From contig NC_015976.1 of NCBI RefSeq assembly GCF_000283515.1, positions 3,380,501 to 3,444,500 on the forward strand: 64,000 bases of DNA. The letters are read 5' to 3'. A program made the translations under genes and the position numbers. Position 1 is the stretch's first letter. Each line of letters starts with the position of its first letter. Positions 1,775-22,170 of the stretch are shown here, in pieces. The stretch is from Sphingobium sp. SYK-6. GTDB taxonomy: Bacteria > Pseudomonadota > Alphaproteobacteria > Sphingomonadales > Sphingomonadaceae. The notes under the pieces were generated by a model. It saw nothing but the letters and a program-made list of their open reading frames with translations, searched no databases and was not told where the DNA came from.

Positions 1775-3868
1775 ATGATGCGCTTCCTCGCAGCATTCTG
1801 TGCGTCCCTGGCATTTCTGTCCGACAGTCCTGCGGGCGCGGATCCCGCACGGAGCATGCTCGCGCGGGATATCTCGATCACGGAAAGCCTGCGGCGCGTC
1901 CGACTGCTTCAGGATAGCTATGCCCAATATGCTCAGTACGGCCTGTGGGACGAAATCGGCGACCTGTTCGCGCCGGAGGGCAGATTCATATTCGACGGGC
2001 AGGTTGGACCGGCGAAGACGGCGAATGGCCCGCGCGATATCGCGTCGTTCCTGCGGACCCGATATGGCGGCGGGCGCGAGGGACAGGTGCGCGGGGGGCT
2101 CTCGGCGATGATGATCGACTCTCCCGTCATCAACCTCGCTGCGGATGGGCGGACGGCGAAGGCGCGTTTCCAGACTCTCATATTCCACGGCCATGGTGGC
2201 AAGGCACGTATCGAAGGTGGCGTGCTCGCCACCGACTACATGCTTGAAGGAAGCGTCTGGAAGATCGCGGCGGCACATTTTTATCCCCAGCTCGAAGGGC
2301 CTTACGAGGAAGGCTGGACGAACTGGGGTGGCGGCGACCTGCCTGTCCCGCCCTATCATTTCGACCTGACGAATGCCGGCCTCCCCGTTCAGCCCGCCCT
2401 CTCCTCGCCCCGCACAGCCGAAGCGCTGTCCGCCTTGCAGAAGCGCGTGACGCTGCTCAATGACGAGGATCGGGTCCGCAATCTGCAGGCGATCTACGGC
2501 TATTATGCCGACCGCAGGATGTGGGACGATGTCGTGGACCTTTTCGCCGAGGACGCCGCGGTGGAGATCGGCGGGCAAGGCATCTGGCGAGGCAAGGTGG
2601 GAGTCCGCCGCTGGCTCGACAGGATCGGCGAACAGGGCCTGCGTCATGGCCAGCTGAACGACAGGGTCCAGTTCAATGTGACCGTGAAGGTCGATCCCGG
2701 CGGCAACGAGGCCCATGCGCGGGGTATCGAACTGGGAATGCTCGGCGAGGCCGATCGCGAACAGGGCTGGTGGGAGATCGCGACGTTCCACAACCGGTTC
2801 ATCCGGCAGGACGGGGTCTGGAAACTGCAGGAGATGCGCCGGTTCGTGCAGGCGAAGACAGATATTTTCCTGGGCTGGGGCAAGAGCCGTATTTCCGACC
2901 CCGTCCCCGCCGGCGCCACCGCTCCCGACAGGCCGGACGCGAAGGCCTCGCTGGCTGATTTGGTGCCGGCCTTCCTCGGCAGACACCCGGTCACCGGCAG
3001 GCCGGTGCGGGCGAAGGGCCGGGCGAAGCTGGTCGCGACCGGTCCGCTGACTGGTAGGATCGCCGCCGGCAGGGATGCGCCGGTCGACCTGGACGAGATC
3101 CGTCGCCGCCTCGATCGATCCAGAGCCCGGGACGGAGCGATGAACGTGGGGGCGGCCTACGGCTTCTACCTCGATGATTCCCGCCCTGCCGGTTTCGCCG
3201 GGCTGATCGCCGAGAAGGGTTTCAAGGTGACACCCGCCATCGGCTATTATATCGGCCGTGACCGGATCCTGGCGGCCCGCGCACCGAGCGCCGAACCAGA
3301 GAAGCGGCCCGGCATTTCCTATCATTGGCTGGTGCAGCCTGTTTTCCTGATTTCCGACGACGGCCGTTCGGCAACGGGCCACGTCCGCCTGTTCAACTTC
3401 CGCACGGGAAAAACGGTCGGCAAGGCCGGCGACCTTTTCGGCGCGTCGTTCTGGGGCGGGATGTACTACAATCAGTATGTGCTGGAGAACGGCCACTGGC
3501 GGATCTGGGACTTGACGATCGAGGAGCCCTTCATCAGGTCGCTGGCCTGGAAGGACGGTCTCTGGGCCAAGGTCAAGGACCCGCCGCCCGGCAGCGCCGC
3601 AACCGCGGCTTCGAATCCCTTCCCGCCGGATATTCCCATCAAGGCGCTGGGCAAGCGCGCGGAAGGCTTTCGGGGCGGAACGGGGCAAACAATCGAATGG
3701 CCTTCCATCATGCCGATGTGGTTCGAGTTCACCAATCCGGTGAGCGGTCGCCTCCCCCCGCTTCACCAGACGGACTGTACCCCCTGCCTGGTCAGACCCG
3801 GCCTGCGGCTGGATCGCAATGGCTACCAGCGACCGCCCGATGCTCCGGCGGCCAATCGCTCGCCGTGA
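1775..3868 (+). CDS. Secreted protein with three SnoaL-like (NTF2-fold) domains
   Basis: This 697-residue protein has a Sec-type signal (M-M-R-F-L-A-A-F, cleavage near A-G-A-D, residue 22). Three NTF2/SnoaL-like units can be seen: about residues 35-180 (L-L-Q-D-S-Y-A-Q-Y followed by W-D-E-I-G-D-L-F-A), about 225-365 (L-Q-A-I-Y-G-Y-Y-A-D-R-R-M-W-D-D-V-V-D-L-F-A), and a more diverged unit at about 440-610. Single SnoaL domains are usually small polyketide cyclases, dehydratases or hydroxylase-like proteins of about 130 residues; a secreted triple fusion is unusual. The C-terminal tail has a Cys-Thr-Pro-Cys pair. It is co-transcribed with the HD protein and converges on the LigI-like gene 24 bases away. 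Function is unknown; a periplasmic role on an aromatic or polyketide-like substrate is inference. Confidence 0.7.
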   Translation: MMRFLAAFCASLAFLSDSPAGADPARSMLARDISITESLRRVRLLQDSYAQYAQYGLWDEIGDLFAPEGRFIFDGQVGPAKTANGPRDIASFLRTRYGGGREGQVRGGLSAMMIDSPVINLAADGRTAKARFQTLIFHGHGGKARIEGGVLATDYMLEGSVWKIAAAHFYPQLEGPYEEGWTNWGGGDLPVPPYHFDLTNAGLPVQPALSSPRTAEALSALQKRVTLLNDEDRVRNLQAIYGYYADRRMWDDVVDLFAEDAAVEIGGQGIWRGKVGVRRWLDRIGEQGLRHGQLNDRVQFNVTVKVDPGGNEAHARGIELGMLGEADREQGWWEIATFHNRFIRQDGVWKLQEMRRFVQAKTDIFLGWGKSRISDPVPAGATAPDRPDAKASLADLVPAFLGRHPVTGRPVRAKGRAKLVATGPLTGRIAAGRDAPVDLDEIRRRLDRSRARDGAMNVGAAYGFYLDDSRPAGFAGLIAEKGFKVTPAIGYYIGRDRILAARAPSAEPEKRPGISYHWLVQPVFLISDDGRSATGHVRLFNFRTGKTVGKAGDLFGASFWGGMYYNQYVLENGHWRIWDLTIEEPFIRSLAWKDGLWAKVKDPPPGSAATAASNPFPPDIPIKALGKRAEGFRGGTGQTIEWPSIMPMWFEFTNPVSGRLPPLHQTDCTPCLVRPGLRLDRNGYQRPPDAPAANRSP

Positions 3869-3892: not shown

Positions 3893-4744
3893 CTATAGGC
3901 GCGACGCCTCGCATTCGTTGTCGAAACGGTAGAGGCGGGCGGGATTGTCGACCAGCACGGCCCTCAGCAGGCCATCGCCACCCAATATCTCGTGGCACAG
4001 CTCCAGAAGTGCGAGGTCGTCTGGCACCGGGCCCTTGATGTTCGGATGAGGCCAGTCCGTTCCCCACAGGATCCGGTCCGGCGCTGCGTCGACGATTCGC
4101 CGCACGAAGGGGATGACATCGCGCCAGGGAGCCCCGGCCGCCGATGCCCTGTCGCATCCGGAAATCTTGATCCACACATCCGGGCGCCGCGCAAAATCGA
4201 GCAGCGCCCGGAAGGGTTTCTGATCCAGCCCGGCACTCGCTTCGATTCGGCCGAGATGATCGATGACCGCCGGCACGGATAGGCCTTCGAGATAGGGTTG
4301 CAATCCGGGAAGATCTGCCCCGCCAACATGCAGGACGACATGCCAGCCCAGCCGCTCGATGCGCTTCATCATATCGCGGAAGGCGTCCAGCGGCGGCGGC
4401 GGCGAGAGGTGCGGCAGGAAGTTGTAGCGAATGCCGCGAATGCCTTTCCGGTCGAGAATGTCCAGCGCCTGATCCTCGATATCGAACGGGACCAGGGCGA
4501 CGCCGCGATAGCGCCCGCCGGATGTCGCGATCGCATCGATCATGGCGCGATGGTCGAAGCCATGGGCGTTGGGCTGAACCAGCACCGCCCGGTCGATACC
4601 AAGGCTGCGGTGCAATTCGAAAAGGGCCTCACGGGGAGCATCTTCCGGTGTGTAGCTGCGGGCCGGGTCATAGGAATAAACACTGGCCGGACCGAAGATA
4701 TGACAATGCGCATCGCAGGCACCCGCTGGCAGCGCAGGCATCAT
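3893..4744 (-). CDS. LigI-like amidohydrolase (2-pyrone-4,6-dicarboxylate lactonase family)
   Basis: A 283-residue TIM-barrel amidohydrolase. It has the metal motif D-A-H-C-H-I-F-G-P near the N terminus, Y-T-P-E-D-A, V-L-H-V-G, I-D-H-L-G-R and the closing metal aspartate in W-G-T-D-W-P-H-P-N. These match the layout of LigI, which hydrolyses 2-pyrone-4,6-dicarboxylate in 4,5-cleavage of protocatechuate or gallate. The start is set at the ATG (4744) overlapping the upstream stop as ATGA; the longer reading frame would overlap that gene by about 100 bases. It is the last gene of a three-gene operon. None of the other 4,5-cleavage genes are in the window, so the substrate may be a related lactone. 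Confidence 0.78.
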   Translation of the reverse strand: MMPALPAGACDAHCHIFGPASVYSYDPARSYTPEDAPREALFELHRSLGIDRAVLVQPNAHGFDHRAMIDAIATSGGRYRGVALVPFDIEDQALDILDRKGIRGIRYNFLPHLSPPPPLDAFRDMMKRIERLGWHVVLHVGGADLPGLQPYLEGLSVPAVIDHLGRIEASAGLDQKPFRALLDFARRPDVWIKISGCDRASAAGAPWRDVIPFVRRIVDAAPDRILWGTDWPHPNIKGPVPDDLALLELCHEILGGDGLLRAVLVDNPARLYRFDNECEASRL

Positions 4745-5370
4745 GAGCCGCGATAGTCCAGGCGCCGTGACATGAAGCGACGCGTATTCCGGAATGTCGG
4801 CCGCACGCGCGAGCTCCATTCCGTCGTCCGCACCGCCAGCCACGGATCGCTGTCGAGCACATCCGCCGCCGTCAGATCATAACAGGCAAAATAGGGCGGT
4901 GAACCCTCGATGCAGATCATGCGCTGCGCGAAAACCGTGCCGGGCACTGCGGCAAGCCCGGGCATGTGCTCGGTGTCATACCAGCGCTCGAGCTCGCCCG
5001 CCCCCCCGGCCTCGACATCGGTATGCACGACATATCGGAAAGGTGCCGGATGCCCCGCGGAGGCACCCGCGACAGCAAGGCGAGGTGACAGGAGACTGAC
5101 GGACACCGGTCCGAGCATCAGAGGTTCCATCCACTCGTCCAGCAGGCCCTTGACGTCCGGGACCGACGGAACCTGCCGACCCGCGGGAAGATAGGCGGTG
5201 ATGCGGCCAGTGGCCAGGTCCTGATATGCAGCGAAACGCGCGGGATCGCCGGCAAACGCTCGGACCAGCTCCCCCAGCGAGGTCATCAGCGCGTCCAGCA
5301 TGTCGGCATGGGGATCAATCTCGATCAGGATCGAAGGGCCCGCGCCGTCACCATTCGCCTCAACGGACAT
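4741..5370 (-). CDS. EthD-like dimeric alpha/beta-barrel protein
   Basis: A 209-residue protein whose C-terminal half has the EthD-type signature W-Y-D-T-E-H-M-P-G-L followed by P-G-T-V and a hydrophobic beta strand. The N-terminal half could be a second, more diverged ferredoxin-like unit. Proteins of this fold act as small isomerases, cyclases, lactone-handling enzymes or heme-binding monooxygenases. No catalytic residue can be assigned. The ATG at 5370 lies inside the end of the CMD-family gene, with GGAG just upstream, and the stop overlaps the LigI-like start, so the three genes are translationally coupled. Confidence 0.6.
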   Translation of the reverse strand: MSVEANGDGAGPSILIEIDPHADMLDALMTSLGELVRAFAGDPARFAAYQDLATGRITAYLPAGRQVPSVPDVKGLLDEWMEPLMLGPVSVSLLSPRLAVAGASAGHPAPFRYVVHTDVEAGGAGELERWYDTEHMPGLAAVPGTVFAQRMICIEGSPPYFACYDLTAADVLDSDPWLAVRTTEWSSRVRPTFRNTRRFMSRRLDYRGS

Positions 5371-9907: not shown

Positions 9908-10864
9908 TCACGTCGCGCGCGCCCTTTCCCGGGCATGCTTTTCGAGGAAAGCGACCACCGCAGCGTTGAAGAGGCCCGGTCGTTCCCAATAGGCCGAATG
10001 TCCGCATTCCGGAATCACGACCAACTCGCTTCCGGGAATGGAGCGATGAAGCAGACGGGCGATGGGCGGCGGGGAGAGAAGGTCGGCGTCTCCCGCCACG
10101 AGCAGCACCGGCATCTCCAACTGTTCGATGTGATCGAGTGTCACGGGGCGCCCAAACGGCTGGCTGATGGGCGGGTTGTCGCCGCGCGAGCGCGCATGGA
10201 ATTCGTTCCACTTCTCGACACCTTGCGGATTGATCATCCGATAGGAGGGCGCGAGTTCACGAACATCGTGAGGCACGCCATCGTACCAGGGACCTCGCAA
10301 GGAGGCCGCCATTCGTCCGATGACCGGATCGGAAGGGGAGAGCAGCGAGCAGGCCAGGCAAAGCGATGCGACACGCTCCGGCCAGCTCACCGCAAATGCC
10401 GTGGCGACAAAAGCGCCCGCGGCCGTCCCGACGATGTGACACTGCCTTATATCGAGATGGTCCAGCAACAGGCGCAGGTCGTCGCTCGCGGTCCCGGGAT
10501 TGGCCGGATCGCCACGCGTGGAGCGCAGAAAGCCTCTCCGCGAATAGCCCACGACGCGAAAGCCCGCATCGGCAAATGGGGCCGCCTGATAGCCCCAGAC
10601 TTCTCCGCTGCCGGTACCGGGATGCAGGAGAATGATTGTCGGGGCGCCTTTTTTGCCGAGTTCCCAATACCAGAGGTCGACGCCCCCGAGCCTGGCTACC
10701 TCCCCGCCGTCCGCCAGTGAAACGGGTGGCGCCTCCGGCTCAAGTGGCAAGGGATCGCCTTCTGAGACGTCAGTCCGTGCTGCGAGGATCGCGGCTTTAC
10801 TCACTGCGGCCAGCTGGGTTGCGATCACTCCCGCAGCCAGGACGTATCGCCTGCTTGCCTTCAC
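9908..10864 (-). CDS. Tat-exported alpha/beta-hydrolase-fold protein with Ala in place of the nucleophile
   Basis: A 318-residue alpha/beta hydrolase. The GTG at 10864 is the start: it follows AAAGGA by 8 bases and begins S-R-R-Y-V-L-A-A-G, a twin-arginine-like signal. The fold is clear: L-L-H-P-G-T-G (oxyanion region), G-Y-S-R-R-G, the elbow, then G-D-A-D-L-L (acid) and C-G-H-S-A-Y-W (His). The elbow reads G-T-A-A-G, so residue 148 is Ala where hydrolases have Ser, Cys or Asp. Acid and base are kept. It may be a binding protein, a lyase or an oxygen-using enzyme that needs no nucleophile. The TonB receptor gene lies 145 bases upstream, probably in the same transcript. Confidence 0.75.
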   Translation of the reverse strand: MKASRRYVLAAGVIATQLAAVSKAAILAARTDVSEGDPLPLEPEAPPVSLADGGEVARLGGVDLWYWELGKKGAPTIILLHPGTGSGEVWGYQAAPFADAGFRVVGYSRRGFLRSTRGDPANPGTASDDLRLLLDHLDIRQCHIVGTAAGAFVATAFAVSWPERVASLCLACSLLSPSDPVIGRMAASLRGPWYDGVPHDVRELAPSYRMINPQGVEKWNEFHARSRGDNPPISQPFGRPVTLDHIEQLEMPVLLVAGDADLLSPPPIARLLHRSIPGSELVVIPECGHSAYWERPGLFNAAVVAFLEKHARERARAT

Positions 10865-11009: not shown

Positions 11010-13793
11010 TCAGAAGCGGAAGCGCACGCCGCCCGTGAGCAGCCGCCCGACGCGATCGTAGAAAGGAGAGCCCGCGGCGCTGGCTCCAGTGATGACCTGC
11101 GGCGTAATCGGCGGGTCATTATCCAGAAGATTGTTGACCTTGGCAAATATCTCTACCTCGGGCGTGATCTTGTAGCTGCCGTTAACGTCAATATAGGCTC
11201 GTCCGCCCACATGATTGTTGTTGATGCTATTGGGACCACCGCCCTCGAAATAGAGGCTGTTGTAAACGCCACCCTGGACGTAACGACCGAGAATTCCGAA
11301 AAGATAATTATTCGTTCTGTAGGAGAGGGATATGTTGCCGCGCCAGTGCGGTATGCCCGTCCCCGAACCCGTCTGACCGGCTGTTTCCCCATTCACCGAA
11401 TTATAGAGCGTGCTCACATAGTTGGCGAGCGCACGAGCTGTGACGGAACCCTCCCCGACCGGGAACGAATACTCCGCTTCGATATCCACGCCTTTTGTCT
11501 TGAAGGTCGCGGCGTTCAGCAAGGTGGCGCGAACATCCGTGATCACGTTCGTGGCCGGATCGCGCGTGATCGCAGAACAGAAGGCGGTTACGCCGATATT
11601 GCATCCGTCGACGACCTGCTGGGCAGTCGGCGCCAGGATCGCGGAGTCGATCGAGATTGTGTAATAGTCGATGGAAAGATGAAAGCGCGGCAGGAACAAC
11701 GGCTCGAGGACCACGCCGACCGTATAGGTTTTCGCCTTTTCGGGCTTCAGTGCGGTATTGCCGCCAGTCAGCTGATTGACGGTGCTCGAACGCGCCGGCG
11801 TGAACGAAGTATCGATCACGATTGGGCGGCCGGACGCCTGCCCGGAAAAGAGTTCGTTCACGTTGGGCGCGCGGATATCGCGCGACACAGTGCCGCGGAA
11901 GCGGATGCCCCGAACCGGCGTGTAGGTGGAACCGACCTTCCACGTCGTCACGGAGCCGCTGGTGCTGTAATCCGTCAGACGCAAGGCGCCGCTGACATCC
12001 AGTTCCTCGGCGATTGCCGAATCCTTCAGGACGGGCACGCCGATCTCGCCGTAAAGCTCCTTCACGTTGAAACGGCCGCTCAGCGTCTGGGCGTTGATCT
12101 GCCGCCAGCCGCTTGCCTGGGAAATCGGGTCGGAGACCTGACTGACCTCCTCGGTGCGATACTCGGCGCCAAGCGCGAGCTGAATGTCACCGGCGGGAAG
12201 GCTCATCGGGGATCCGCTGATATTCGCCGCGTACACATTCTGCCGCTGTTCGGAACGCGACGTGGACGTCCCGATATAATATGCGACGGCGGCGGCGCTG
12301 ACCGACCCGGGACCGAAAAGATTTGACGGTACGCAGGCAGGGTCGTCATTCGTCGTGGACGCATCCACATTGATCCGACAGGCCGGCTGACCGGTCGCCG
12401 GGTTGATGACGGCGTCGATCGCATTCAGCCATCGGGCGTTGATCCGGTTGCTGGCATCGGCCCGCTCGTAGAGATTGCGGGAAATCTGTGCATAGGCGCT
12501 GTATTGCCAGCCGGCGCCGAACGTTCCTTCGATCCCCAACGCATAACGCCGCACGGTGGCGATCGTCGTGGTCGACAGAGTGCCATCTTCCTCATTGATG
12601 CGACCGATCGTCAACGTTCCGTTTGCGGGAATGAGATCGCGGATGGAGGCCGGCATGAATGCATTGTCGCGACGAAGGACAATCGTTCCGGAATCGATAT
12701 TCGGATTCTGGTCGGTAAAGGCTTCGCTTCGTGACCACAGTGCGTCGGCGAAGATCGAGGTATCGTCCGTGAAGTCGAAGGAGACCCGCCCGAAGCCTGC
12801 GTAACGGGTATAGCGGGGCGTGATGTTCGCGGTCGCCATGGGGGTCCCGCCATCACCGCCTGTCATGAAACTGGACCCGACATTGGTTCCGAAATCGAAC
12901 GGAAGAACCGTACCGCCCGGCCCGAACTGAATACCCCGCAGAGCAGCCGGGCTGTTGAGGGCCGTGACGCCGCCACTGATGAGCTGGGTGGTGGTGGAAT
13001 TCGGGAGGATCAGACGCTGGGGCTGACCATTTGTCGTCGTGTAGGCCGGGTTGGTCAGAACCGCGTAGTTGTGGCTGCCCCAGGGACGCGTCGATTGGTC
13101 GAGCTGGCCCGTATTCCTGTAGAAGTCACCCGCGGCAATGACGTGGAGGCGCCCGCCCAGCGCGGATTTTCCGACCGCGAGAGAAGCACCCGGCTGGCGA
13201 TGGTCACCATATGTCGTCTCGCTGTACTGGACGCTCCCCTTCACGCCCTCCAGTCGTGAATCGAGCGATATGTTCACGACGCCCGACACGGCGTCCGAGC
13301 CATATGCCGCCGAGGCACCACCGGTCACGATTTCAACCTTATTGATGAGAACGGCCGGAATGACGCTGACGTCCACGCCGCCACTTGAATCGGTCGCAGC
13401 AAAGCGACGTCCATCGAGCAGCAACAGCGTGCGGCTGGACCCGAGACCTCTGAGGTCGAGATTGCTCGCGCCGATCGGCGCGCTGACCTGACCGTTGTTC
13501 TGATTGAAACGCAACGTCGGCACATCCATCATCAGGTCGGTCACGGACCGGATGGCCTTCGCCTCCAGATCCTGCTGCCCGATGGATGTCACCGGCGTCG
13601 GCGCGGAAAATCCCACGAGGCGCGTGCCGGTGATAACGAGATCCTGCTTGTTCTCCGTCTCGTCGGCGACGTTTGCATCCTCAACCGCTTCCGGCTGCGC
13701 AAATGCTGGCATCGCACTCAATGAAACCGCCAAACACAGCCAGCTTGAACGCACTCCAAAAGAATTATCGAATTTCAATGACTTAAACCGCAC
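11010..13793 (-). CDS. TonB-dependent outer-membrane receptor
   Basis: A 927-residue receptor. The GTG at 13793 is preceded seven bases upstream by AAGGAGGGGAGG-like sequence and starts a signal peptide ending A-M-P-A-F-A-Q. A plug domain follows (V-I-T-G-T-R-L-V, L-D-L-R-G-L-G-S-S-R-T-L-L-L-L-D-G-R-R, V-E-I-V-T-G-G-A-S-A-A-Y-G-S-D-A-V-S-G-V-V-N split over residues about 45-190), then a 22-strand barrel ending in G-G-V-R-F-R-F. It belongs to the sphingomonad receptors for large organic substrates rather than clear siderophore receptors. Longer reading frames upstream would include the two operators and are rejected. Two operator copies lie directly before the ribosome-binding site, linking it to the exported heme-protein operon. 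Confidence 0.92.
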   Translation of the reverse strand: MRFKSLKFDNSFGVRSSWLCLAVSLSAMPAFAQPEAVEDANVADETENKQDLVITGTRLVGFSAPTPVTSIGQQDLEAKAIRSVTDLMMDVPTLRFNQNNGQVSAPIGASNLDLRGLGSSRTLLLLDGRRFAATDSSGGVDVSVIPAVLINKVEIVTGGASAAYGSDAVSGVVNISLDSRLEGVKGSVQYSETTYGDHRQPGASLAVGKSALGGRLHVIAAGDFYRNTGQLDQSTRPWGSHNYAVLTNPAYTTTNGQPQRLILPNSTTTQLISGGVTALNSPAALRGIQFGPGGTVLPFDFGTNVGSSFMTGGDGGTPMATANITPRYTRYAGFGRVSFDFTDDTSIFADALWSRSEAFTDQNPNIDSGTIVLRRDNAFMPASIRDLIPANGTLTIGRINEEDGTLSTTTIATVRRYALGIEGTFGAGWQYSAYAQISRNLYERADASNRINARWLNAIDAVINPATGQPACRINVDASTTNDDPACVPSNLFGPGSVSAAAVAYYIGTSTSRSEQRQNVYAANISGSPMSLPAGDIQLALGAEYRTEEVSQVSDPISQASGWRQINAQTLSGRFNVKELYGEIGVPVLKDSAIAEELDVSGALRLTDYSTSGSVTTWKVGSTYTPVRGIRFRGTVSRDIRAPNVNELFSGQASGRPIVIDTSFTPARSSTVNQLTGGNTALKPEKAKTYTVGVVLEPLFLPRFHLSIDYYTISIDSAILAPTAQQVVDGCNIGVTAFCSAITRDPATNVITDVRATLLNAATFKTKGVDIEAEYSFPVGEGSVTARALANYVSTLYNSVNGETAGQTGSGTGIPHWRGNISLSYRTNNYLFGILGRYVQGGVYNSLYFEGGGPNSINNNHVGGRAYIDVNGSYKITPEVEIFAKVNNLLDNDPPITPQVITGASAAGSPFYDRVGRLLTGGVRFRF

Positions 13794-13810
13794 AGCAGCC
13801 TCCCCTCCTT

Positions 13811-13832
13811 TTACCGGATTATTTTCCGGATT
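13811..13832. promoter_or_regulatory. Palindromic operator site 2 (9-4-9)
   Basis: TTACCGGAT, four bases, then TTCCGGATT. It follows the same 22-base layout as the site at 853 and is located directly upstream of the receptor's ribosome-binding site. Confidence 0.65.
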
Positions 13833-13843
13833 ATATGGGCCGG

Positions 13844-13865
13844 CTACCGGAAAGTTTTCCGATAA
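13844..13865. promoter_or_regulatory. Palindromic operator site 3 (9-4-9)
   Basis: CTACCGGAA, four bases, then TTCCGATAA. It starts 33 bases from site 2, about three helical turns, so two regulator dimers could bind the same DNA face. Confidence 0.72.
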
Positions 13866-13960
13866 ACAAGCCATAATCTTATGATGAGGAAAGAGATCCC
13901 CCGAGGCACTGACATCGGGCCAGGAGCGCGCTCTGGCGAGCCTGGAAGAACGCCGGCCGT

Positions 13961-14827
13961 TCAAAGACCCCCGGCTTTGACAAGGCTTTCGCGCACATCG
14001 GCTGGCGGCGTCAGCTTGCCGATTTCGCCACTCGCGGGTGCGCCGATGCTGATCCACCAGCGGATCGCCTGGACCTGCGCGGGGTCGAGCGGCGTCTTGT
14101 TGTTCTTGGGCATGAAGTCGACATGGTTTCGCGCCACGGTGATACGATGGTACAGATCGCTCTTCCCGGGGTCCTTGGGCACGATGACGGGCCCGGTTTC
14201 GCCCCCTTTCATCATTTCATCGTAACGCACGAGCGAAAGGCCGCCCCGCTTCTTGTCGTCGTTGTGGCACGAGGCGCAGCGGTCACGGAAAGCAGGCGCG
14301 ATCACATCAAGATAGATGTCCGCCTTGGCGATGTCGGTGATCGGCGGGCGCGGCGCCGCTTCCGGCGCAGCCTCTCCGGCGGCCAGTGATCGCAAGGGGC
14401 CCGGGGCAAATTCGGTCAGATAGGTCGATCCGTGCGTGAGGTTCCCGCCCAGATGGCCAGTCGCAGTCATCAGGATGAGGACCACCACGAGCGGGATTGG
14501 CCAGATCTTCGAGAAGGTGGCAGGCGCTTCGAGCCGCCAGGCCCAGATCGCAATGGCCGCGAAGGCGAGAGCCGTGCCGGCCCATCGATGAAGGCTCACC
14601 CCCGGCCCGGTGAAGCCCGGCTCCGTGGCATGCATATAGCCCAGGGCGACGGTGACCAGCGCGGAGATCGCCCCGGCAAGCCAGGTGAGCGATACTGCCG
14701 GAACGAGCGCGCCAAATCTTGGCCGACGCGACATTGCCTCCATCAGGACCGCCAGAAGCAGTATCCCGATGGGCAGATGAAGAACGAGAACATGAAAACG
14801 GCCGAGAAAGAAAATGAAGTCGTTCAT
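13961..14827 (-). CDS. DUF2231-like membrane protein fused to a cytochrome c domain
   Basis: A 288-residue protein. Residues 1-130 hold four hydrophobic helices in a DUF2231-like arrangement with conserved histidines (L-H-L-P-I-G, G-V-S-L-H-R-W). Residues 175-280 form a planctomycete-type cytochrome c domain with one heme site, C-A-S-C-H at 184-188, and a later methionine in D-F-M-P-K as possible second ligand. The protein is probably inner-membrane-anchored with heme in the periplasm and could pass electrons between the membrane and the soluble DUF1592-type heme protein. It is the last gene of the operon, 19 bases after the ankyrin gene. Confidence 0.78.
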   Translation of the reverse strand: MNDFIFFLGRFHVLVLHLPIGILLLAVLMEAMSRRPRFGALVPAVSLTWLAGAISALVTVALGYMHATEPGFTGPGVSLHRWAGTALAFAAIAIWAWRLEAPATFSKIWPIPLVVVLILMTATGHLGGNLTHGSTYLTEFAPGPLRSLAAGEAAPEAAPRPPITDIAKADIYLDVIAPAFRDRCASCHNDDKKRGGLSLVRYDEMMKGGETGPVIVPKDPGKSDLYHRITVARNHVDFMPKNNKTPLDPAQVQAIRWWISIGAPASGEIGKLTPPADVRESLVKAGGL

Positions 14828-14846
14828 CGGCGCGTGGTCCTTCTCG

Positions 14847-16583
14847 TCATGACGCCTGTTTCCTGGAAATGATGGCTGGGGTTGCGGACGCGGGCGCAGC
14901 GCGCGGTTCGGAAGCCGGCTCGCCTGGTGCGACCGTGGGCTTGCGGCGTTCGCACTGGAGTCCGCGCTCCTTGCAGAGCCGCTCGATCAGAGCGATTGTC
15001 GTCGGCTTGGCCTGCGCCGGCAGCGTCGCAAGGAACACGCCCTGGGCCCAGGTGAGCGCGGTCCGCCCCTGATCGTCGGCATCCTCCAGCCGCGCGCCTT
15101 TCTCGACGAGAAAGCGCACGATCTTGTCGGAACCGCGGTTCGCAGCTCCGTGCAGAGCGGTCACTTTCATGGAGTTGGCCGCGTTCACGTCCTGGCCGTA
15201 TTTCATGCAGAGCTTGATCGCTTCCAGGAGCTGGTCCTCACCCTCGTCGTACGTCTGGTAGAACTGCCAGTTGACCCCCGCTGCGGCCATCAGCGGCGTC
15301 GTCCCGCGCCAGGTCGCGAGATTGGGATTTGCGCCATATTTTATGAGGAGCTTCATGGACGTGACGTCACCCGAAAGTGCCGCGCGCAGGAACGGTGTCT
15401 GCCCCGTGAAGTCGACCCACGAGAGCGAACCGCCATGCATCAGGAACTGACGGATGGGCGGATATTCATTCACGCGGGCATTGGGTTGCGCGCCTTTCTG
15501 AAGCAGCAGCTCGATGACCTTGAGCACTGCGGGGCGATCTATGCCGTGCTCCGTGCTGTCGCTCGCATACTCCACGTTGCGAATCTCGACGGCCGCGAAG
15601 AGCGGAGTGCGCCCGTACCAGTCCGCGGCGTTCACGTTCGCGCCGAGGCCGAGGAGATACGTGGCAATGTCCATCCGATTATTCAGAATGGCCATCAACA
15701 GCGGCCTGATGCCGTTCGGTTCTGCGCCCTCCCGAGGGGCACCGGCCTCAATGAGCATACGGGCGGATTCAAGGTCTCCGGCACGGACTGCATAATGGAG
15801 CGGCGTGAGCCCGCCTGCGATCGGCGGACGCTGTCCCTGCGGCGGGACGCCTCCGCGGATGATGCCGTCGCCATGCGATCCGTTGCCGAACCCCGGAGGT
15901 GTGAACTTGGGCGTATCGCCCACAATCGTTTTCGCATCGATCCTGGCACCGGCTTCGAGCAGGCGCCGCACGACATCCGGATGCGCGTTCCAGGCGGCCA
16001 GCATGAGCGGGGTGACGTGATGCGTCTTCTCTGCCGTGTTGACCGCAGCGCCCGCGTCGATCAGCCGGCTCACGACCCCCAGCGAGCCCTGCCGGGCAGC
16101 GGCGATCAATGGCGTCTCGCCCCGGACGTCCGGGATGTCCGGCTTCGCCCCGGCCTGGAGCAACCGCTTCACAAGGGCCTCGTCACCCTGTCCGCTGGCG
16201 ATGTGCAGGGCCGTGGTCCCGAAGCGGTTGATCCCGTCCGGGTTCGCGCCATGATCCAGGAGCAGCGACACTGTCGGCTGGTCGGAGAAATGCGCGGCCC
16301 ACAGGAGAGCTGGGGTCCCGTCTGCGCTGACCTGGCTTGGATCTGCCCCCTGCTCAAGCAGGGCGCGCGCCTCCGCCATCATTCTGCCGCTGGCTGCCTC
16401 GGCCATCCTGCGTCCAAGAATGCTTGCCTCCGGCGCCGGCAGCACTGGTGCGCGCGACCGCATGCTCAGCGCCGCGAGTGCGATCATGGCCAGAATGAAG
16501 ACAATTCCAAGTGCTGCGGCGAGCCGCGGCACCGCCAGTTTAGAGATCCACGGTTCCGGTGCTGTCGCCGAACTTGTCGACAT
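14847..16583 (-). CDS. Membrane-anchored ankyrin-repeat protein
   Basis: A 578-residue protein. One hydrophobic helix near residues 20-42 is followed by roughly a dozen ankyrin repeats covering residues about 60-530 (typical units A-L-L-W-A-A, T-A-L-H-I-A-S, T-P-L-I-A-A-A-R, T-P-L-M-L-A-A-W, T-P-L-H-Y-A-V-R). The tail is Pro/Ala-rich. The orientation suggests a periplasmic ankyrin scaffold, which may hold the other exported proteins together; this is inference. The annotated ATG lies 44 bases inside the DUF1552 gene, an unusually long overlap; a GTG at 16532 just after that stop is an alternative start but would shorten the region before the helix. Confidence 0.82.
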   Translation of the reverse strand: MSTSSATAPEPWISKLAVPRLAAALGIVFILAMIALAALSMRSRAPVLPAPEASILGRRMAEAASGRMMAEARALLEQGADPSQVSADGTPALLWAAHFSDQPTVSLLLDHGANPDGINRFGTTALHIASGQGDEALVKRLLQAGAKPDIPDVRGETPLIAAARQGSLGVVSRLIDAGAAVNTAEKTHHVTPLMLAAWNAHPDVVRRLLEAGARIDAKTIVGDTPKFTPPGFGNGSHGDGIIRGGVPPQGQRPPIAGGLTPLHYAVRAGDLESARMLIEAGAPREGAEPNGIRPLLMAILNNRMDIATYLLGLGANVNAADWYGRTPLFAAVEIRNVEYASDSTEHGIDRPAVLKVIELLLQKGAQPNARVNEYPPIRQFLMHGGSLSWVDFTGQTPFLRAALSGDVTSMKLLIKYGANPNLATWRGTTPLMAAAGVNWQFYQTYDEGEDQLLEAIKLCMKYGQDVNAANSMKVTALHGAANRGSDKIVRFLVEKGARLEDADDQGRTALTWAQGVFLATLPAQAKPTTIALIERLCKERGLQCERRKPTVAPGEPASEPRAAPASATPAIISRKQAS

Positions 16584-17865
16584 TGACGTTCGCTTTCTGC
16601 AGAATTGTTAGAAGGAGATTTGAAAGCGGACGCTTCCCTGACCCCGATCGGATGTGGCGATTGCCCTTGATCGAACCCGAGCCTCCTCCCGCCATGACGA
16701 TGGGGACAGGGTCATGGTTGTGGACATTGCTGTCCCCCATCCCGCTTCCCCACATGAGAATGCTGTTGTCGAGCAGGCTGCCATCGCCGTCCGGCGTGCT
16801 CTTCATCTTCTCGAGCAGATAGGCGAACATGCTGACGTGATAGGCGTTGAGCTGAGCGAGCTTGTCCTTGTTCGCCTGGATATTGCTGTGATGCGAGAGA
16901 GGGTGGAACGCCTCACGGACACCACTTTTCGGATAGATCGCGTTGCTGATCTCGACGGCGACCATGAGCGTGGAGATGCGCGTCATCTCTGTCTGCCAGG
17001 CAAGTACCTGCAGATCGAACAGCATCTTGATGTGGTCCTCGAAATCGGCAGGGATGCCGACAGGCGTGGGCGGCAGGTCGAGGTCGCTCGATGCCTGCTG
17101 CTCGGCAAGCGCAACGCGCCGCTCGACTTCGCGGACGTCCGTCAGATACTGATCGAGACGGCGTCGATCGGCCGCGGGCAGGTTCCGCTGCAGCGAGGAC
17201 GTCTGCTCCAGCACGCCATCCAGAATGCTTGCCGCCTGCTGGCGATTTGCGGCGCGCGCATTCCCGTCCCGACCATCGCCGAACAGACGCTCGAAAACGA
17301 CTTGCGGGTTGCGTTCGACCGGCAGCGGACTGTGCTCGTCGGACCAGGCGAGGCTGTCACGATAAGCGCAGCTCCACCCTTCCCCGCATGTCGCCGAGCT
17401 CCCTTCTATCCCGAGCTCGAGCGACGGAAGCGGCGTCTCCTGGCCGATTTTCCGGGCAGCGAGCTGATCGATGGTGATGCCGAGCCGGTTCTCGTTCTTG
17501 TGCATCGCCGCGCCGCTGAGATAGGTCGCACACGAGCTGGAATGATGCGCGGCGGCCGAGCCGTCCTCCGTGTAGGCAAGCGGCAGTCCCATGTCGCTGA
17601 TCACGTTCAGCCAGGGCCGGTAAGGCTCGAGCGAGCGCAATGTCGGCGACATCGCGAAATCGGTTCCATCGGTGGCGGGCGTCCATTTGTCCATCACCGC
17701 GCCGTGCGGCACATAATAGAAGCCCAGGCGCGTCCGGCTCGCGGCTCCCGAGACATTCGTCGCGGCAGGCAGCATCGATTCCAGGAAGGGCAAAGCCAGC
17801 GCAGCCCCGCCAAAGCCCCTCAGGAGCGTCCGTCGCGACAGGTGCTTCTTTGTGATATAGTGCAT
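16540..17865 (-). CDS. Tat-exported DUF1552 family protein
   Basis: A 441-residue protein with a clear twin-arginine signal (S-R-R-T-L-L-R-G-F-G-G-A-A-L-A-L-P, residues 10-26). The mature part matches the DUF1552 family: F-Y-V/Y-P-H-G near residue 50, H-H-S-S-S-C-A-T-Y-L-S-G, S-L-E-L-G near 150, H-P-L-S-H-H, and a closing L-W-G-S-G-M-G-D-S-N-V-H-N-H-D-P-V-P. The conserved His/Asp clusters suggest a metal site, but no function is established for the family. DUF1552 genes are typically found beside DUF1587/1592/1588/1585 genes in planctomycetes, verrucomicrobia and myxobacteria, and that pairing is kept here. Confidence 0.85.
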   Translation of the reverse strand: MHYITKKHLSRRTLLRGFGGAALALPFLESMLPAATNVSGAASRTRLGFYYVPHGAVMDKWTPATDGTDFAMSPTLRSLEPYRPWLNVISDMGLPLAYTEDGSAAAHHSSSCATYLSGAAMHKNENRLGITIDQLAARKIGQETPLPSLELGIEGSSATCGEGWSCAYRDSLAWSDEHSPLPVERNPQVVFERLFGDGRDGNARAANRQQAASILDGVLEQTSSLQRNLPAADRRRLDQYLTDVREVERRVALAEQQASSDLDLPPTPVGIPADFEDHIKMLFDLQVLAWQTEMTRISTLMVAVEISNAIYPKSGVREAFHPLSHHSNIQANKDKLAQLNAYHVSMFAYLLEKMKSTPDGDGSLLDNSILMWGSGMGDSNVHNHDPVPIVMAGGGSGSIKGNRHIRSGSGKRPLSNLLLTILQKANVNVDKFGDSTGTVDL

Positions 17866-17912
17866 CTCACGCCACCTTTCCGAGTGCTCGGCCTCGCGGC
17901 CCCACTCTCGTC

Positions 17913-18755
17913 TCAGACCTTGATCAGTTCGACTTCGAAACCATCGGGATCGGTAAAGCGGAGCCGCACCGCGGTTGCGCCACTCAGCGGCTTCGCACCG
18001 AGCGACACCAGACCCGCCGACACTTTGACAGGATCGAATGGACCCACCCGGATTCCGACGCGCTTGAAGCCCGTCGCTCCGCCGGGCGACTGCGGTGCGA
18101 GGCGGATCGTCGTATCCGCCGCGCGATACCAGATCTCACCCTTCTCCCTGGCCGGCGTCCGGGCGAAAAAGCGGTCGTAGAAGCGGCTGGAAGCACCGAG
18201 ATCGGCGACGCGCAGCAGAACATTGTCCATCCCATATGGCTGCACCAGGCCGTATCCGCGTCCCAATATGCGCTCTGCCGGAATGTTCGTCTCCGTCAGG
18301 CCAGCCGGATCCTTGAGCAACTGCAGGCCGATCTTGTCGGGATCCAGCACCATGCCCCGCGCGGCTGGCGGCAGTCCGAGCGCCGAAAGAGCCGCATTCA
18401 TCTTGTCGCGATCATAGCCTTCGACGGCCACGCAATAATGATCCATGACCGGCGCCGGCTGGCTGGCGCGACTGCCGATCGCGATATAGGCCTTGCCGAT
18501 CATCACATAATAGCGCAGCGGCGGGTCCATCTCCTTGAAAAGCCCATGGCCGAACACAGCGCTGTAGAAGCGCGCGGTCGGAGTCACGTCCGGCACTGTC
18601 ATCGCAAAATGCTCCAGGCCGGTCGTGATCAGGGGAAGTTCATCCCCGCGAAGCGCCGCCGCGCCCGCAAGGGAACTGCTCAGCAATGGCAGGCTGGCCG
18701 CGCCGATGAGCAATGTACGACGTGCGACATCGGGAATGGTCTCGTGTTCGATCAC
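17913..18755 (-). CDS. Tat-exported two-domain VOC (glyoxalase-fold) protein
   Basis: A 280-residue protein with A-R-R-T-L-L-I-G-A-A-S-L-P-L-L as a twin-arginine-like signal. Two glyoxalase/extradiol-dioxygenase-fold units follow: residues about 45-160 (L-E-H-F-A-M, D-H-Y-C-V-A-V, G-L-Q-L-L-K-D-P) and about 165-280 (Y-G-M-D-N-V-L-L-R-V, F-K-R-V-G-I-R-V, D-P-D-G-F-E-V-E-L-I). The first unit keeps possible metal ligands (two His and a Gln); the second has lost the first His. VOC proteins can be dioxygenases, isomerases or lyases. Export through Tat fits a metal-containing enzyme. Its start overlaps the DUF1592-type gene's stop (ATGA). Confidence 0.75.
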   Translation of the reverse strand: MIEHETIPDVARRTLLIGAASLPLLSSSLAGAAALRGDELPLITTGLEHFAMTVPDVTPTARFYSAVFGHGLFKEMDPPLRYYVMIGKAYIAIGSRASQPAPVMDHYCVAVEGYDRDKMNAALSALGLPPAARGMVLDPDKIGLQLLKDPAGLTETNIPAERILGRGYGLVQPYGMDNVLLRVADLGASSRFYDRFFARTPAREKGEIWYRAADTTIRLAPQSPGGATGFKRVGIRVGPFDPVKVSAGLVSLGAKPLSGATAVRLRFTDPDGFEVELIKV

Positions 18756-21187
18756 GCAGCTTTCCTTTTCTTTTCCGCTTGCGATTCTTCGGTCCGGGTC
18801 GAGCGGGACGGAGGCCCGAGCGGCCGCGCCGCGTTGGTTCGCGTGAGAAAGGGCTGGCTTTCCACCACGCCCATGATGATCGAGATGAGCCCGTTCCCCT
18901 GGGACTTGGAGCGCCGCATCACCTCGCGGACCGCGGGCATTTCATGCGCATTGACCGGCCGCCCAAGCGCATAGGTCATGAGCTTCGAGGTCAGGTTCGC
19001 CACGAACGCGTCGGAATATTTCAGAAGCGCGCGGTTCAGATCCGCACTGTCGCGCAATGCCGTGCCATCGACCAACGTACCCGATGCATTGATGGGGAAC
19101 GGCCCGTCATGTGTGCGCCACTTCCCCGTCTGATCGAAATTCTCCATCGTCAGTCCGATGGGGTCCATCATGTTGTGGCAGCTGGCACAGGCCGGGTTCT
19201 CACGATGCTGGGCAAGCCGTTCCCGCAGTGTCTGGGGCGTCTTGACGGACGCATCCAGATTGGTCTCGACACCCGGCGGCGGCGGCGACGGCGGCACGCC
19301 AAGGATGTTTTCCAGCACCCATGCACCTCTGATGACGGGCGACGTGCGGTTGGCGACCGATGTGACGGTCAGGATGCTTGCATGCCCCAGCAGGCCGCGA
19401 CGCGGATTGCTGGGGGGAAGCGCGATGCGACGGAAATAGTCGCCTTGCACGCCCTTGATGCCGTAATGCCGCGCCAGCCGTTCGTTCACGAACGTATAAT
19501 CTGCATTGAGCAGCTCAACGGCAGGACGATCGCCGCGCAGCACGTTCGCAAACAGCAGCTTGGTTTCCCGCTCCATCGCGAAGCGCAGATTGTCGTCGAA
19601 ATCCTTGCTCTCGCGCTCTGCGCTGGCGAGTTGCCGCAGATTGAGCCATTGGCCGGCAAAATTGTCGACGAACGCATCGGCGCGCTTGTCTGCGATCATG
19701 CGGCGGACCTGGCGCTCCAGCTCCGCCGGCTGGGTCAGCTTGCCGCTGACGGCCGACGCCATCAGCGCGCCATCGGGAATGCTGCTCCAGAGGAAGAAGG
19801 ACAGACGCGAGGCGAACTCGATCGGCGATACCGGATAGACCGAGCCCGGAGCGGCACCGGCAGGCTCCTGCTCAACCCGATAAAGGAAGCGGGGATCGAC
19901 CAGGACATAGGCCAGCGCTTGCTGAACGCCCGTCTCGAAATTGCCGCGCCCCCGGCCTTGATCATAATATCGCATCAGCAAGTCCATGTCGGCGGACTGC
20001 TCCGCCACCGGCCGGCGGAACGCCTTGCCGGCCAGGCGCGCAACGATACTGCGCGCGCAGGCTCGCTCCTCCATCGGCTTGCGCGGATAGCAGCTGAAGA
20101 TCTTTGAGCGGGTGGCGGTCTTGCCGACGCCCTTGACGTTGAACGGCCCGTTGACCGCGACGTCCATGATCGTGCCCTTAACGTTGAAGGTCGCGTAGAT
20201 CTCATCGACACCGGGCTCCAGATCCACGTCGCGCAACGCCACTGTGACGGGGAACTCGCCGGCACGGACATGGACGCGCGCTTTCCCCTTGCTGTCGACC
20301 GGAAATGCCTTTCCGGCGACCGTCAGATCGACATTGGGCATCTTCCCGCCGCCATATTTCCTGAACAAGGTGATGCCGGGCCCGGCACGCACCTCGACCT
20401 CGTAGTCGCCCTCGACCGGGAAAAGCACGTTGAGCCGTACGCCGCCGCGCGTGCCGAGCGGCAGGCCCGCTATGTACCGGCTGTTGTCGAGCTTCTGGGG
20501 TACGGGGAAGGCCCGCCGCGCGGATGCCATGGTCGGATCGCCCACCGCCAGGCGGCTGATGCGCATGCCTGCGTTCAGATAGCCCTGAACCAGCGCGGGC
20601 GACGTGGTGAGGATCTCCCCGATATTGTCGAAACCCTTCGTGGACGGGTCCGGGGGCAGCAACGTCGTGACATCGACGTTCAGGCCAAGAAGGTCCCGGA
20701 TGACATTGCCATACTCGCTCCGGGTCAGACGGCGCAGAACGGCGGGAGCGGGCAACGGCTTGGCGCCATCCAGACTGGACGTGATCGCCTGGATCAGCTC
20801 GCGCGCCTCGGCTTTGCTGGGTCGCGGCTCACCCGCCGGGGGCATCATGCCGCTGGACAGGCGCCGCACTGTGGCCTCCCATAGCTCGGGAGCCTTCGAC
20901 GGATTGGCGAGACTCATCTCGTCGAAGGCGAGCCCCGCCGTCTTCTCGACACTGTCGTGACAACTCATGCAGTATTTGCCGATCAGGGGGTGCGGCGCCT
21001 TGGCCAGCATCGCCGGCGATGGCGCATCGCTGCCGCCGACCGGGAACAGATAGGCGAGCAGAACGAGCACCAAAGCCATGGCGGCGACGGCGAGGTGGCG
21101 GATTCCCTTTCCGCCCTCGGCGATCGCGCCCCTGTCATGCCCTTGCCAGAGATACGCCCGGAACTGAGCCGGAGAAACGTGCATCAT
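18752..21187 (-). CDS. Di-heme DUF1587/DUF1592/DUF1588/DUF1585 exported protein
   Basis: An 811-residue protein anchored by one hydrophobic helix (about residues 32-52). A first heme site C-M-S-C-H lies near residue 73. Then come DUF1587-like (L-T-R-S-E-Y-G-N-V-I-R-D-L-L-G), DUF1595-like (R-L-A-G-K-A-F-R-R-P), DUF1592-like (L-S-F-F-L-W-S-S-I-P-D), DUF1588-like (R-R-G-L-L-G-H-A, with a second heme site C-A-S-C-H near 670) and DUF1585-like segments (L-T-Y/M-T-Y-A-L-G-R-P). This is the full planctomycete-type cytochrome architecture; its biochemical role is not established. The start is one of ATG 21208, 21187 or 21184; a TTG at 21214 touches the operator and is unlikely. It heads the five-gene operon. 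Confidence 0.83.
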   Translation of the reverse strand: MMHVSPAQFRAYLWQGHDRGAIAEGGKGIRHLAVAAMALVLVLLAYLFPVGGSDAPSPAMLAKAPHPLIGKYCMSCHDSVEKTAGLAFDEMSLANPSKAPELWEATVRRLSSGMMPPAGEPRPSKAEARELIQAITSSLDGAKPLPAPAVLRRLTRSEYGNVIRDLLGLNVDVTTLLPPDPSTKGFDNIGEILTTSPALVQGYLNAGMRISRLAVGDPTMASARRAFPVPQKLDNSRYIAGLPLGTRGGVRLNVLFPVEGDYEVEVRAGPGITLFRKYGGGKMPNVDLTVAGKAFPVDSKGKARVHVRAGEFPVTVALRDVDLEPGVDEIYATFNVKGTIMDVAVNGPFNVKGVGKTATRSKIFSCYPRKPMEERACARSIVARLAGKAFRRPVAEQSADMDLLMRYYDQGRGRGNFETGVQQALAYVLVDPRFLYRVEQEPAGAAPGSVYPVSPIEFASRLSFFLWSSIPDGALMASAVSGKLTQPAELERQVRRMIADKRADAFVDNFAGQWLNLRQLASAERESKDFDDNLRFAMERETKLLFANVLRGDRPAVELLNADYTFVNERLARHYGIKGVQGDYFRRIALPPSNPRRGLLGHASILTVTSVANRTSPVIRGAWVLENILGVPPSPPPPGVETNLDASVKTPQTLRERLAQHRENPACASCHNMMDPIGLTMENFDQTGKWRTHDGPFPINASGTLVDGTALRDSADLNRALLKYSDAFVANLTSKLMTYALGRPVNAHEMPAVREVMRRSKSQGNGLISIIMGVVESQPFLTRTNAARPLGPPSRSTRTEESQAEKKRKAA

Positions 21188-21257: not shown

Positions 21258-21393
21258 TGGTTATGACCTACAATGGGGGTTGTCAAGGGAACTCAGTTCA
21301 GCATTAATGAAGCGCACCTGGACGCACGGCCCTTCACAAGTGGCACCTGACTGGTCCTGGCAAGGTTACGGCAGAGCAAAAAAGGAAAGCCAG

Positions 21394-22170
21394 TTGACCA
21401 AATCGACCACGAACGATGACGAATACATCCCTTCTCTTGAGAAGGGGCTTGCGGTCATTGCCTTGTTCAGCTCAGACAACCCTGAATGGACGCTCAGCCA
21501 GATTTCGCGAGAGCTCAAGATAACGCCGGGAAGCACTCGAAGAATACTGAGGACGCTGGAATTATTAGGCTATGCGGTAAACAATGATGGCCGCTTTCGG
21601 CTGACTGCCAAAGTTCTTGGCCTTGGAACGGCATACCTGTCGTCGCAGCCTTTTTCTCAAGCAGCGGGACCATTGCTCAGGGAACTTGCGGCAAAATATC
21701 ATATCAATTGTAACCTCGCCATCCTCGACAATCGCGATGTCGTTTACGTGGCGCGTGCCACTTACAAGGATTTCGAGAACTATTATATTCATGTCGGCGC
21801 ACGTGTCCCGGCTTACGCGACTTCATCCGGCAAGGTGTTACTCGCTTCCCTGTCGCCTGAGGAACTCGAAACGCTTCTCGATGGCTGGACACTGGAAGCA
21901 TTCACGCCAAATACGATCGCGTCACACGAAAAACTTCGTGAGGTTCTGGATGAGGTTCGCACACGCGACTATGCGACGAACGATCAGGACATTTTCCTCG
22001 GACAGCGGTCGATCTCTGTCCCCCTTCGGATCGATGGCAGAACGACGGCAGCGATCGTAGCAGCGACATCCGTCAGCCGGACCACGCTTGAGGGTCTCGT
22101 GACCGATCTGTTGCCGCCGCTCCAGGCGGCGGCCAGGGAGCTGGAGGAGACAGCGGCCGTTCTTCTTTGA
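21394..22170 (+). CDS. IclR-family transcriptional regulator, predicted regulator of the heme-protein regulon
   Basis: A 258-residue IclR-type protein: winged helix-turn-helix at residues about 12-75 (S-L-E-K-G-L-A-V-I, T-L-S-Q-I-S-R-E-L-K-I-T-P-G-S-T-R-R-I-L), then the GAF-like effector domain (S-S-G-K-V-L-L-A, D-Q-D-I-F-L-G-Q-R-S-I-S-V-P). The start is set at TTG 21394, which follows AAAGGAAA by six bases and matches where related proteins begin; upstream starts add a non-conserved 38-residue tail. Its codons look more AT-rich than those of its neighbours, hinting at separate origin. It is divergent from the DUF1592-type operon over two operator copies, which are also found before two other transcripts. 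Confidence 0.85.
   Translation: MTKSTTNDDEYIPSLEKGLAVIALFSSDNPEWTLSQISRELKITPGSTRRILRTLELLGYAVNNDGRFRLTAKVLGLGTAYLSSQPFSQAAGPLLRELAAKYHINCNLAILDNRDVVYVARATYKDFENYYIHVGARVPAYATSSGKVLLASLSPEELETLLDGWTLEAFTPNTIASHEKLREVLDEVRTRDYATNDQDIFLGQRSISVPLRIDGRTTAAIVAATSVSRTTLEGLVTDLLPPLQAAARELEETAAVLL

Follow-up and report, generated by a model that had tools for sequence, protein, structure and literature searches.

A conserved PSD-DUF1552-ankyrin gene triad in Sphingobium sp. SYK-6 as a candidate periplasmic oxidoreductase system

We analyzed a 64,000-nucleotide stretch of the near-complete genome of Sphingobium sp. SYK-6 (G000; 4.35 Mb, 2 contigs; C1:3380501-3444500), here called the window, in which five successive minus-strand genes encode a two-heme protein of the PSD type, a two-domain VOC protein, a DUF1552 protein, an ankyrin-repeat protein and a DUF2231-cytochrome c fusion. 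The PSD, DUF1552 and exported ankyrin proteins belong to a conserved triad that recurs across many bacterial groups. We regard the operon as a variant form of a gene pair that is known but lacks an explanation. Its function is testable, given that the three core genes are defined, the predicted fold offers a candidate active site and the genes occur as a single copy in a near-complete genome. As a tentative model, to which we give slightly less than an even chance, the triad would form a periplasmic oxidoreductase complex wired to the respiratory chain, with the active site in DUF1552, electron-accepting hemes in PSD and the ankyrin protein as anchor. An earlier interpretation based on the letters of this stretch (the sequence-only reading) had described all five genes as one system.

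Results

PSD (DUF1592) and DUF1552 matches above the cut-off were found in the identical 15 of 298 genomes of the window's family. A sixteenth DUF1552 match in the family is partial and below the cut-off. Locus L034 (genome G134), with a DUF1552 match below the cut-off, carries no cassette. The two genes adjoin in all 15 loci retrieved from 14 family genomes, the window's own aside. Of 385 genomes sampled from the class, 6 gave matches above the cut-off, the window's among them, and all 15 cassettes from the other five contain the adjacent pair. A profile scan of the genome_contigs collection with the PSD alignment, of which the best 80 matches were kept, yielded 79 loci, mostly from metagenome-assembled genomes (MAGs) of Acidobacteria but also from Gammaproteobacteria, Verrucomicrobia, Planctomycetes and others; taxon names of MAGs were taken from the deposited records and may be incorrect in some cases. 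DUF1552 is the next gene on the same strand for 82 of the 87 PSD genes in these loci. The five exceptions lie at contig ends (L043, L085, L095 and one of the PSD genes of L070), apart from the second PSD gene of L112, which truly lacks a DUF1552 partner. The window genome itself holds a single DUF1552 and a single DUF1592 match genome-wide.

The sequence-only reading had placed the ankyrin protein among the partners, and it proved to be a regular one. An ankyrin gene is adjacent in 69 of 74 evaluable PSD-DUF1552 pairs (62 on the same strand), with 8 of the 82 pairs not evaluable at contig ends. Among the five pairs scored without it, L037, L051, L076 and L089 have an ankyrin match overlapping an over-extended open reading frame (ORF) and L079 has none. 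Across 624 kb, 4 further ankyrin genes were counted outside the cassettes. As the loci were picked by PSD similarity and not by ankyrin content, this figure is valid for PSD proteins near the window's. The window ankyrin protein (Pfam, 7.2e-62) has one N-terminal hydrophobic segment, as judged by eye.

The cassettes fall into a long and a short class. Six short PSD proteins that were scanned gave no N-terminal cytochrome match and have no room for the sandwich domain described below; the C-terminal heme domain is present in both long and short PSD proteins. No ankyrin gene was seen near short cassettes (0 of 10 evaluable in the family, none in L193-L205). Instead, all 24 short cassettes (L023-L033 and L193-L205) are adjoined by a gene for a protein of about 400 residues, which we named Xup (e.g. 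L029:12252-13655) and which lies upstream of PSD except in L193. Xup had no Pfam match in any of the nine proteins scanned and was not found in the window or in the long-class loci searched. The third partner thus differs between the classes, being ankyrin in long and Xup in short cassettes. Gene order varies as well, with ankyrin-PSD-DUF1552 in the nearest relatives of the window (L035-L041) and PSD-DUF1552-ankyrin in most others. In the window, the VOC gene separates PSD from DUF1552, whereas in the relatives examined DUF1552 directly follows PSD (with a 1.4-kb gap in L102).

The window DUF1552 protein shares 51-57% identity with its counterparts in the L035-L041 cassettes and 43-44% with those of the four triads found within the family (L019-L022). 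For PSD, the corresponding values are 45-50% (L037 not in the alignment) and 39-42%. In trees, the window falls within the L035-L041 clade with support of 0.991 for DUF1552 and 0.985 for PSD; a separate clade, with support of 1.0, holds the four family triads. Since trees and identities group the operon with cassettes from Acidobacteria and Gammaproteobacteria, it was probably acquired horizontally.

Pfam analysis bore out the domain assignments of the sequence-only reading. The PSD protein carries the string DUF1587/1595/1592/1588/1585 (PSD3-PSD5-PSD4-PSCyt3-PSD2), with the best matches to PSD4/DUF1592 (9.4e-43) and PSCyt3/DUF1588 (1.1e-35) and further matches to PSD3/DUF1587, PSD2/DUF1585 and PSD5/DUF1595. 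In order, it comprises an N-terminal cytochrome c domain (weak Pfam match), DUF1587, a sandwich resembling carbohydrate-binding modules (CBMs), DUF1595, DUF1592, DUF1588 with a second CxxCH motif, and DUF1585. Every cysteine and histidine of both CxxCH motifs is kept in 85 or 86 of 86 aligned proteins (alignment A4, which omits L037 and L070 of the 87 listed PSD proteins because of over-extended ORFs). Invariant in the same 86 are H605, six residues before the second CxxCH, and H615 (model numbering). The N-terminal heme domain weakly resembles cytochrome c-551/552 (E 0.087), and a methionine in it, present in 86 of 86, is a likely ligand. The PSD structure model has a predicted local distance difference test score (pLDDT) of 90.8 and a predicted template modeling score (pTM) of 0.92. 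Residues about 229-362 of the 820-residue frame match a CBM35/36/6 beta sandwich at a borderline level (Z 8.2, root-mean-square deviation (rmsd) 2.7, 98 aligned residues). Foldseek gave no match at 1e-3 or better, and the remainder of the protein, including the helical heme part, had no fold match, which does not imply a novel fold; a sequence search of solved structures returned none that was useful for PSD.

PSD matched 16 plasmid records, 11 of which come from Sphingobium strains named TomMM/TomTYG; Novosphingobium plasmids are represented too. The TomMM/TomTYG plasmids (e.g. AP027312) carry a relative of the second half of PSD. A link to steroids or tomatine was considered and dropped: a term search of PMC10653915 found no occurrence of hypothetical protein, unknown function, cytochrome or VOC.

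The DUF1552 protein (Pfam, 5.8e-89) is predicted to adopt the alkaline phosphatase/sulfatase fold. Its AlphaFold2 model, built from 91 sequences, has a pLDDT of 89.6 and a pTM of 0.86. VIA-align superposed it on the sulfatase 7stt with a Z of 17.2 and an rmsd of 3.6 over 262 residues; 460 of 832 chains reached a Z of at least 8, and the best 50 of the 832 rows were, by title, sulfatases, phosphodiesterases, phosphoethanolamine transferases, alkaline phosphatases and their kin. The best Foldseek match was likewise a sulfatase (1p49, E 2.2e-6, probability 1.00), and no solved structure was related by sequence. Conservation was assessed in 91 sequences, 82 of the long and 9 of the short class (alignment A3, without L030 and L033 owing to a coverage filter). 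H321, H325, H382, D133, D233, R245, E248 and R296 are invariant in all 91, and H108 is found in 90 (one X) and conserved through both subfamilies. The spacing H321-x3-H325 is reminiscent of metal ligands of alkaline phosphatase. The seven genomes that hold the nearest cassettes (L035-L041) contain 10-23 DUF1552 matches each, which suggests many substrates, as in enzyme families diversified by substrate; family genomes with DUF1552 hold one or two. Export of the redox proteins, as claimed in the sequence-only reading, is supported. Twin-arginine motifs were recognized by eye in the DUF1552 and VOC proteins, both arginines being invariant in the 91 DUF1552 and in 6 VOC proteins.

Genes for electron carriers lie near 14 of the 15 family cassettes: cytochrome c' together with b561 in 11, and a high-potential iron-sulfur protein (HiPIP) with or without c' in L023, L024 and L028. 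L026 has no electron-carrier gene near its cassette. Identities of c' and HiPIP were checked on examples. As family genomes hold merely 2-7 b561-family matches each, b561 near 11 of 15 cassettes is far above chance, roughly estimated at 1e-18 for a 13-kb span with the gene family picked after seeing the loci. Near the window cassette there is no b561 match (the four of this genome lie elsewhere) and no c' or HiPIP gene, and the DUF2231-cytochrome c may fill the carrier's place.

This fifth protein matches PSCyt1 (5e-13), and its DUF2231 domain scores 22.5 bits, below the cut-off of 26.4. DUF2231-cytochrome c genes were searched genome-wide in the window genome and nine others, and elsewhere within the retrieved loci. 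The only full-length homologue in the nine other genomes (L189, in the Gammaproteobacterium MAG G589) is 44% identical and has a DUF2231 score above the cut-off (36.3 bits). Six histidines of the membrane domain are invariant in three aligned proteins, which is what heme b would need. In L189 (9913-18430), the gene adjoins a quinoprotein-type dehydrogenase (matching Pfam PQQ at 2e-173, with scores to NCBIfam PQQ models below their cut-off), and the locus also encodes a 4-oxalomesaconate tautomerase (above cut-off) and an HpaI-like aldolase (below cut-off). The position beside dehydrogenase and tautomerase suggests an electron exit for periplasmic oxidations; the role assigned to the membrane cytochrome by the sequence-only reading is plausible.

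The VOC protein has one Pfam match per half (Glyoxalase, 1.1e-7; Glyoxalase_6, 8.7e-6). In two-domain extradiol dioxygenases, the C-terminal half houses a 2-His-1-Glu metal site. In the window-type proteins, H49, H106 and Q145, which are invariant in six aligned sequences, all lie in the N-terminal half, and at the first position of the extradiol site, as assigned by eye, the window protein carries Asn and four of the six aligned proteins carry His. Metal chemistry, as proposed by the sequence-only reading, is possible. The His-His-Gln set is retained in the six window-type proteins; the single-domain VOC proteins of L023 and L028, in contrast, have no such histidines as judged by eye.

At E 1e-15, the window genome was the only one of 289 class genomes with a window-type VOC. 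Among the nine genomes behind related cassettes, six had one at E 1e-10 and five at 1e-15. The gene directly follows DUF1552 in L039 and, in L127 (8132-9040), adjoins the ankyrin gene in divergent orientation. Of the eight VOC matches besides that of L039, this one is adjacent to a cassette and another lies 6 kb from the L127 cassette; in the stretches around the remaining six no cassette was seen, with little visible flank in L126 and L131. Other VOC types adjoin cassettes in L023, L028 and L050 and lie 1.7-2.7 kb away in L194 and L080. A plasmid search with the VOC protein gave no match. VOC is a recurrent but optional part of the cassette. Separately, a VOC protein with a signal-like start adjoins, in L128 (6921-10379), what appear by eye to be a pyrroloquinoline quinone (PQQ) dehydrogenase and a cytochrome c.

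A fixed five-gene system is rejected so far, and by the condition that the sequence-only reading had itself named as refuting, failure of the five families to co-occur in other genomes. Apart from the window, none of the 79 genome_contigs loci, the 15 family and 15 class cassettes and the VOC-match loci has all five families together, many loci being cut by contig ends. Of the system proposed earlier, the triad is conserved, but VOC and DUF2231-cytochrome c are occasional. G589 possesses all five families, with four at L127 and the DUF2231-cytochrome c apart at L189.

Discussion

From gene content, conservation, neighborhoods and predicted folds we infer a complex, a metal, a direction of electron flow and a substrate class. 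A substrate, which may be aromatic, would be imported via the TonB-dependent receptor encoded next to the operon and bound by PSD through its CBM-like domain. DUF1552 would provide the active site, in which conserved histidines would stand in for the nucleophile of the hydrolases and would probably coordinate a redox metal; the substrate would be oxidized there. PSD would take up the electrons via its two c-type hemes, with the membrane-anchored ankyrin protein as a putative scaffold holding PSD and DUF1552 together. An exchangeable carrier, in this operon the DUF2231-cytochrome c, would pass the electrons on to the respiratory chain. In keeping with such a model, the X183 cytochrome of Cbp2D, whose annotation includes DUF1587, donates electrons to a copper enzyme in vitro (PMC8981238). 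VOC and the exported hydrolase may bind or process the substrate before uptake, and further breakdown could be carried out by products of the neighboring catabolic genes (thiolase, 3-oxoacid CoA-transferase). The predicted DUF1552 fold, the electron carriers of the relatives and the horizontal origin go beyond the sequence-only reading.

Several observations weigh against this model. The Foldseek superpositions of DUF1552 are loose (best template modeling score 0.40, rmsd 18), and the profile alignment (hhalign) that puts H108 at the catalytic Cys of sulfatases from the same and related genomes is weak (E 0.015, probability 2.9%) and was read by eye. The full five-gene set was seen once, in the window. 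For class cassettes outside the family, carriers lie near just 2 of 15 (HiPIP in L201; c' and HiPIP in L203), and c', b561 and HiPIP had no match in any of the 79 genome_contigs loci. Among 90 of 152 chosen neighboring ORFs of family loci that were scanned (best represented: 6 short-chain dehydrogenases, 6 TonB receptors, 3 enoyl-CoA hydratases, 3 SnoaL_4 proteins, 2 ring-hydroxylating oxygenase alpha subunits and 2 acyl-CoA dehydrogenases), no single substrate emerges. Finally, we found neither a functional study of DUF1552/DUF1592-type families nor biochemistry for any member in the open-access literature, with most subscription journals outside its range.

Alternatively, PSD could be the enzyme, with its second heme (together with H605) catalytic, comparable to diheme peroxidases and rubber oxygenases, and DUF1552 just binding and presenting the substrate. 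The C-terminal heme domain shared by long and short PSD proteins, of which the six short ones scanned have no N-terminal cytochrome, and the invariance of H605 and H615 speak for this arrangement. We nevertheless consider it unlikely, as the conservation of DUF1552 is more active-site-like; the missing peroxidase or oxygenase fold match for the heme part points the same way, if weakly.

Electrons might also flow in reverse, from quinol via b561/c', HiPIP or DUF2231-cytochrome c to PSD and on to an oxygen-activating metal site in DUF1552, as suggested for cytochrome-fed lytic polysaccharide monooxygenases (LPMOs). In the passages of PMC8981238 available to us, Cbp2D of Cellvibrio japonicus shares with PSD the DUF1587 annotation and the presence of two CxxCH domains (X183, X132), and its X183 cytochrome reduces LPMOs, which are copper enzymes, in vitro. 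Unlike PSD, it possesses a CBM as well as a YceI-like domain and was studied with LPMOs, and these passages mention no DUF1552 or ankyrin partner. The b561 genes near family cassettes, the conserved DUF1552 histidines and the borderline CBM-like domain of PSD would fit such a scheme. We judge it improbable, since the dehydrogenase adjoining the DUF2231-cytochrome c homologue suits an oxidative role better.

That DUF1552 is still a hydrolase of the sulfatase or phosphatase type, with the cytochrome as an accessory, appears highly unlikely. The predicted superfamily fold agrees with it, and sulfatase genes frequently adjoin PSCyt genes in Verrucomicrobia according to the accessible part of PMC5615132. 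However, while the predicted fold is that of the alkaline phosphatase/sulfatase superfamily, the nucleophile and the DHG metal motif appear to be replaced, with conserved histidines instead: the sulfatase CxPSR corresponds to HSSSC in the window protein in the weak profile alignment, and DHG to GMG by eye. There is very little to recommend a stress system like KatB-AnkB of Pseudomonas aeruginosa, in which a peroxide-removing heme enzyme is likewise accompanied by a periplasmic ankyrin protein and KatB activity requires AnkB (in an excerpt of PMC2830190, citing Howell 2000), because the window operon contains other enzyme families with no catalase among the neighboring ORFs scanned, the neighbors are catabolic and the 10-23 DUF1552 copies in seven related genomes suggest many substrates.

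DUF1552 could represent a new class of redox metalloenzymes with an alkaline phosphatase fold rebuilt around a histidine metal site, wiring to a heme protein, and interchangeable third partners (ankyrin or Xup) and respiratory exits. This is possible, with doubt outweighing confidence. If true, a large unrecognized set of periplasmic oxidoreductases with differing substrates would exist in the genomes that have 10-23 copies. DUF1552 and DUF1592-type cytochromes are found in several phyla, and as many as 23 DUF1552 matches were counted in one genome examined. The sequence-only reading had stated that the pair lacks an established activity, in line with PMC5615132, which, as far as its text was accessible, reports PSCyt genes next to conserved families of unknown function. 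The planctomycete-type PSCyt3/PSD genes described there have similar domain strings and a conserved neighbor of this kind, whereas the ankyrin third gene, the carriers, VOC and the DUF1552 fold are not mentioned in that text. In the sections seen of further papers, a secreted DUF1552 protein appears in a transcription-study table (PMC2754498) and the domains are merely listed (PMC6004670, PMC7789669).

Gene content of the window

ORF analysis confirmed that the five genes are consecutive and either overlap or are separated by short gaps, as the sequence-only reading had described (Table 1).

Table 1. Genes of the operon and its immediate neighbors
Product	Position in window	Strand	Basis and remarks
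PSD protein	18752..21187	-	ORF + Pfam; frame open from 21214
Two-domain VOC protein	17913..18755	-	ORF + Pfam; 4-base overlap with PSD
DUF1552 protein (HXXSHH family)	16540..17865	-	ORF + Pfam; 47-base gap after VOC
Ankyrin-repeat protein	14847..16583	-	ORF + Pfam; 44-base overlap with DUF1552
DUF2231-cytochrome c fusion	13961..14827	-	ORF + Pfam; 19-base gap after ankyrin
TonB-dependent receptor	about 11010..13874	-	ORF + Pfam; start 13874 or 13793
Alpha/beta hydrolase	about 9908..10864	-	ORF + Pfam; twin-arginine motif by eye
IclR-type regulator	21280..22170	+	ORF + Pfam; divergent from PSD

Because the TonB-dependent receptor and alpha/beta hydrolase genes come next on the same strand, the transcription unit may exceed five genes and possibly includes both. 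Scores of the hydrolase to PcaD/HsaD-like models were below the cut-off. A promoter and terminator scan at the locus gave nothing usable. Past the hydrolase lie genes for major facilitator superfamily and dicarboxylate transporters, for a LysR regulator and for an amidohydrolase, as well as a frame with SnoaL_4 matches in three stretches. On the opposite flank, the IclR regulator is followed by a thiolase, a second IclR regulator and two 3-oxoacid CoA-transferase subunits.

The three SnoaL_4 stretches lie in a single open frame (1775-3868, plus strand) adjoining the amidohydrolase (3893-4843, minus strand), which scores 237 bits to 4-sulfomuconolactone hydrolase, below the cut-off of 500. Farther away, a minus-strand gene (35689-37527) encodes a HerA-like helicase that scores 258 bits to the anti-phage-associated HerA model (cut-off 850).

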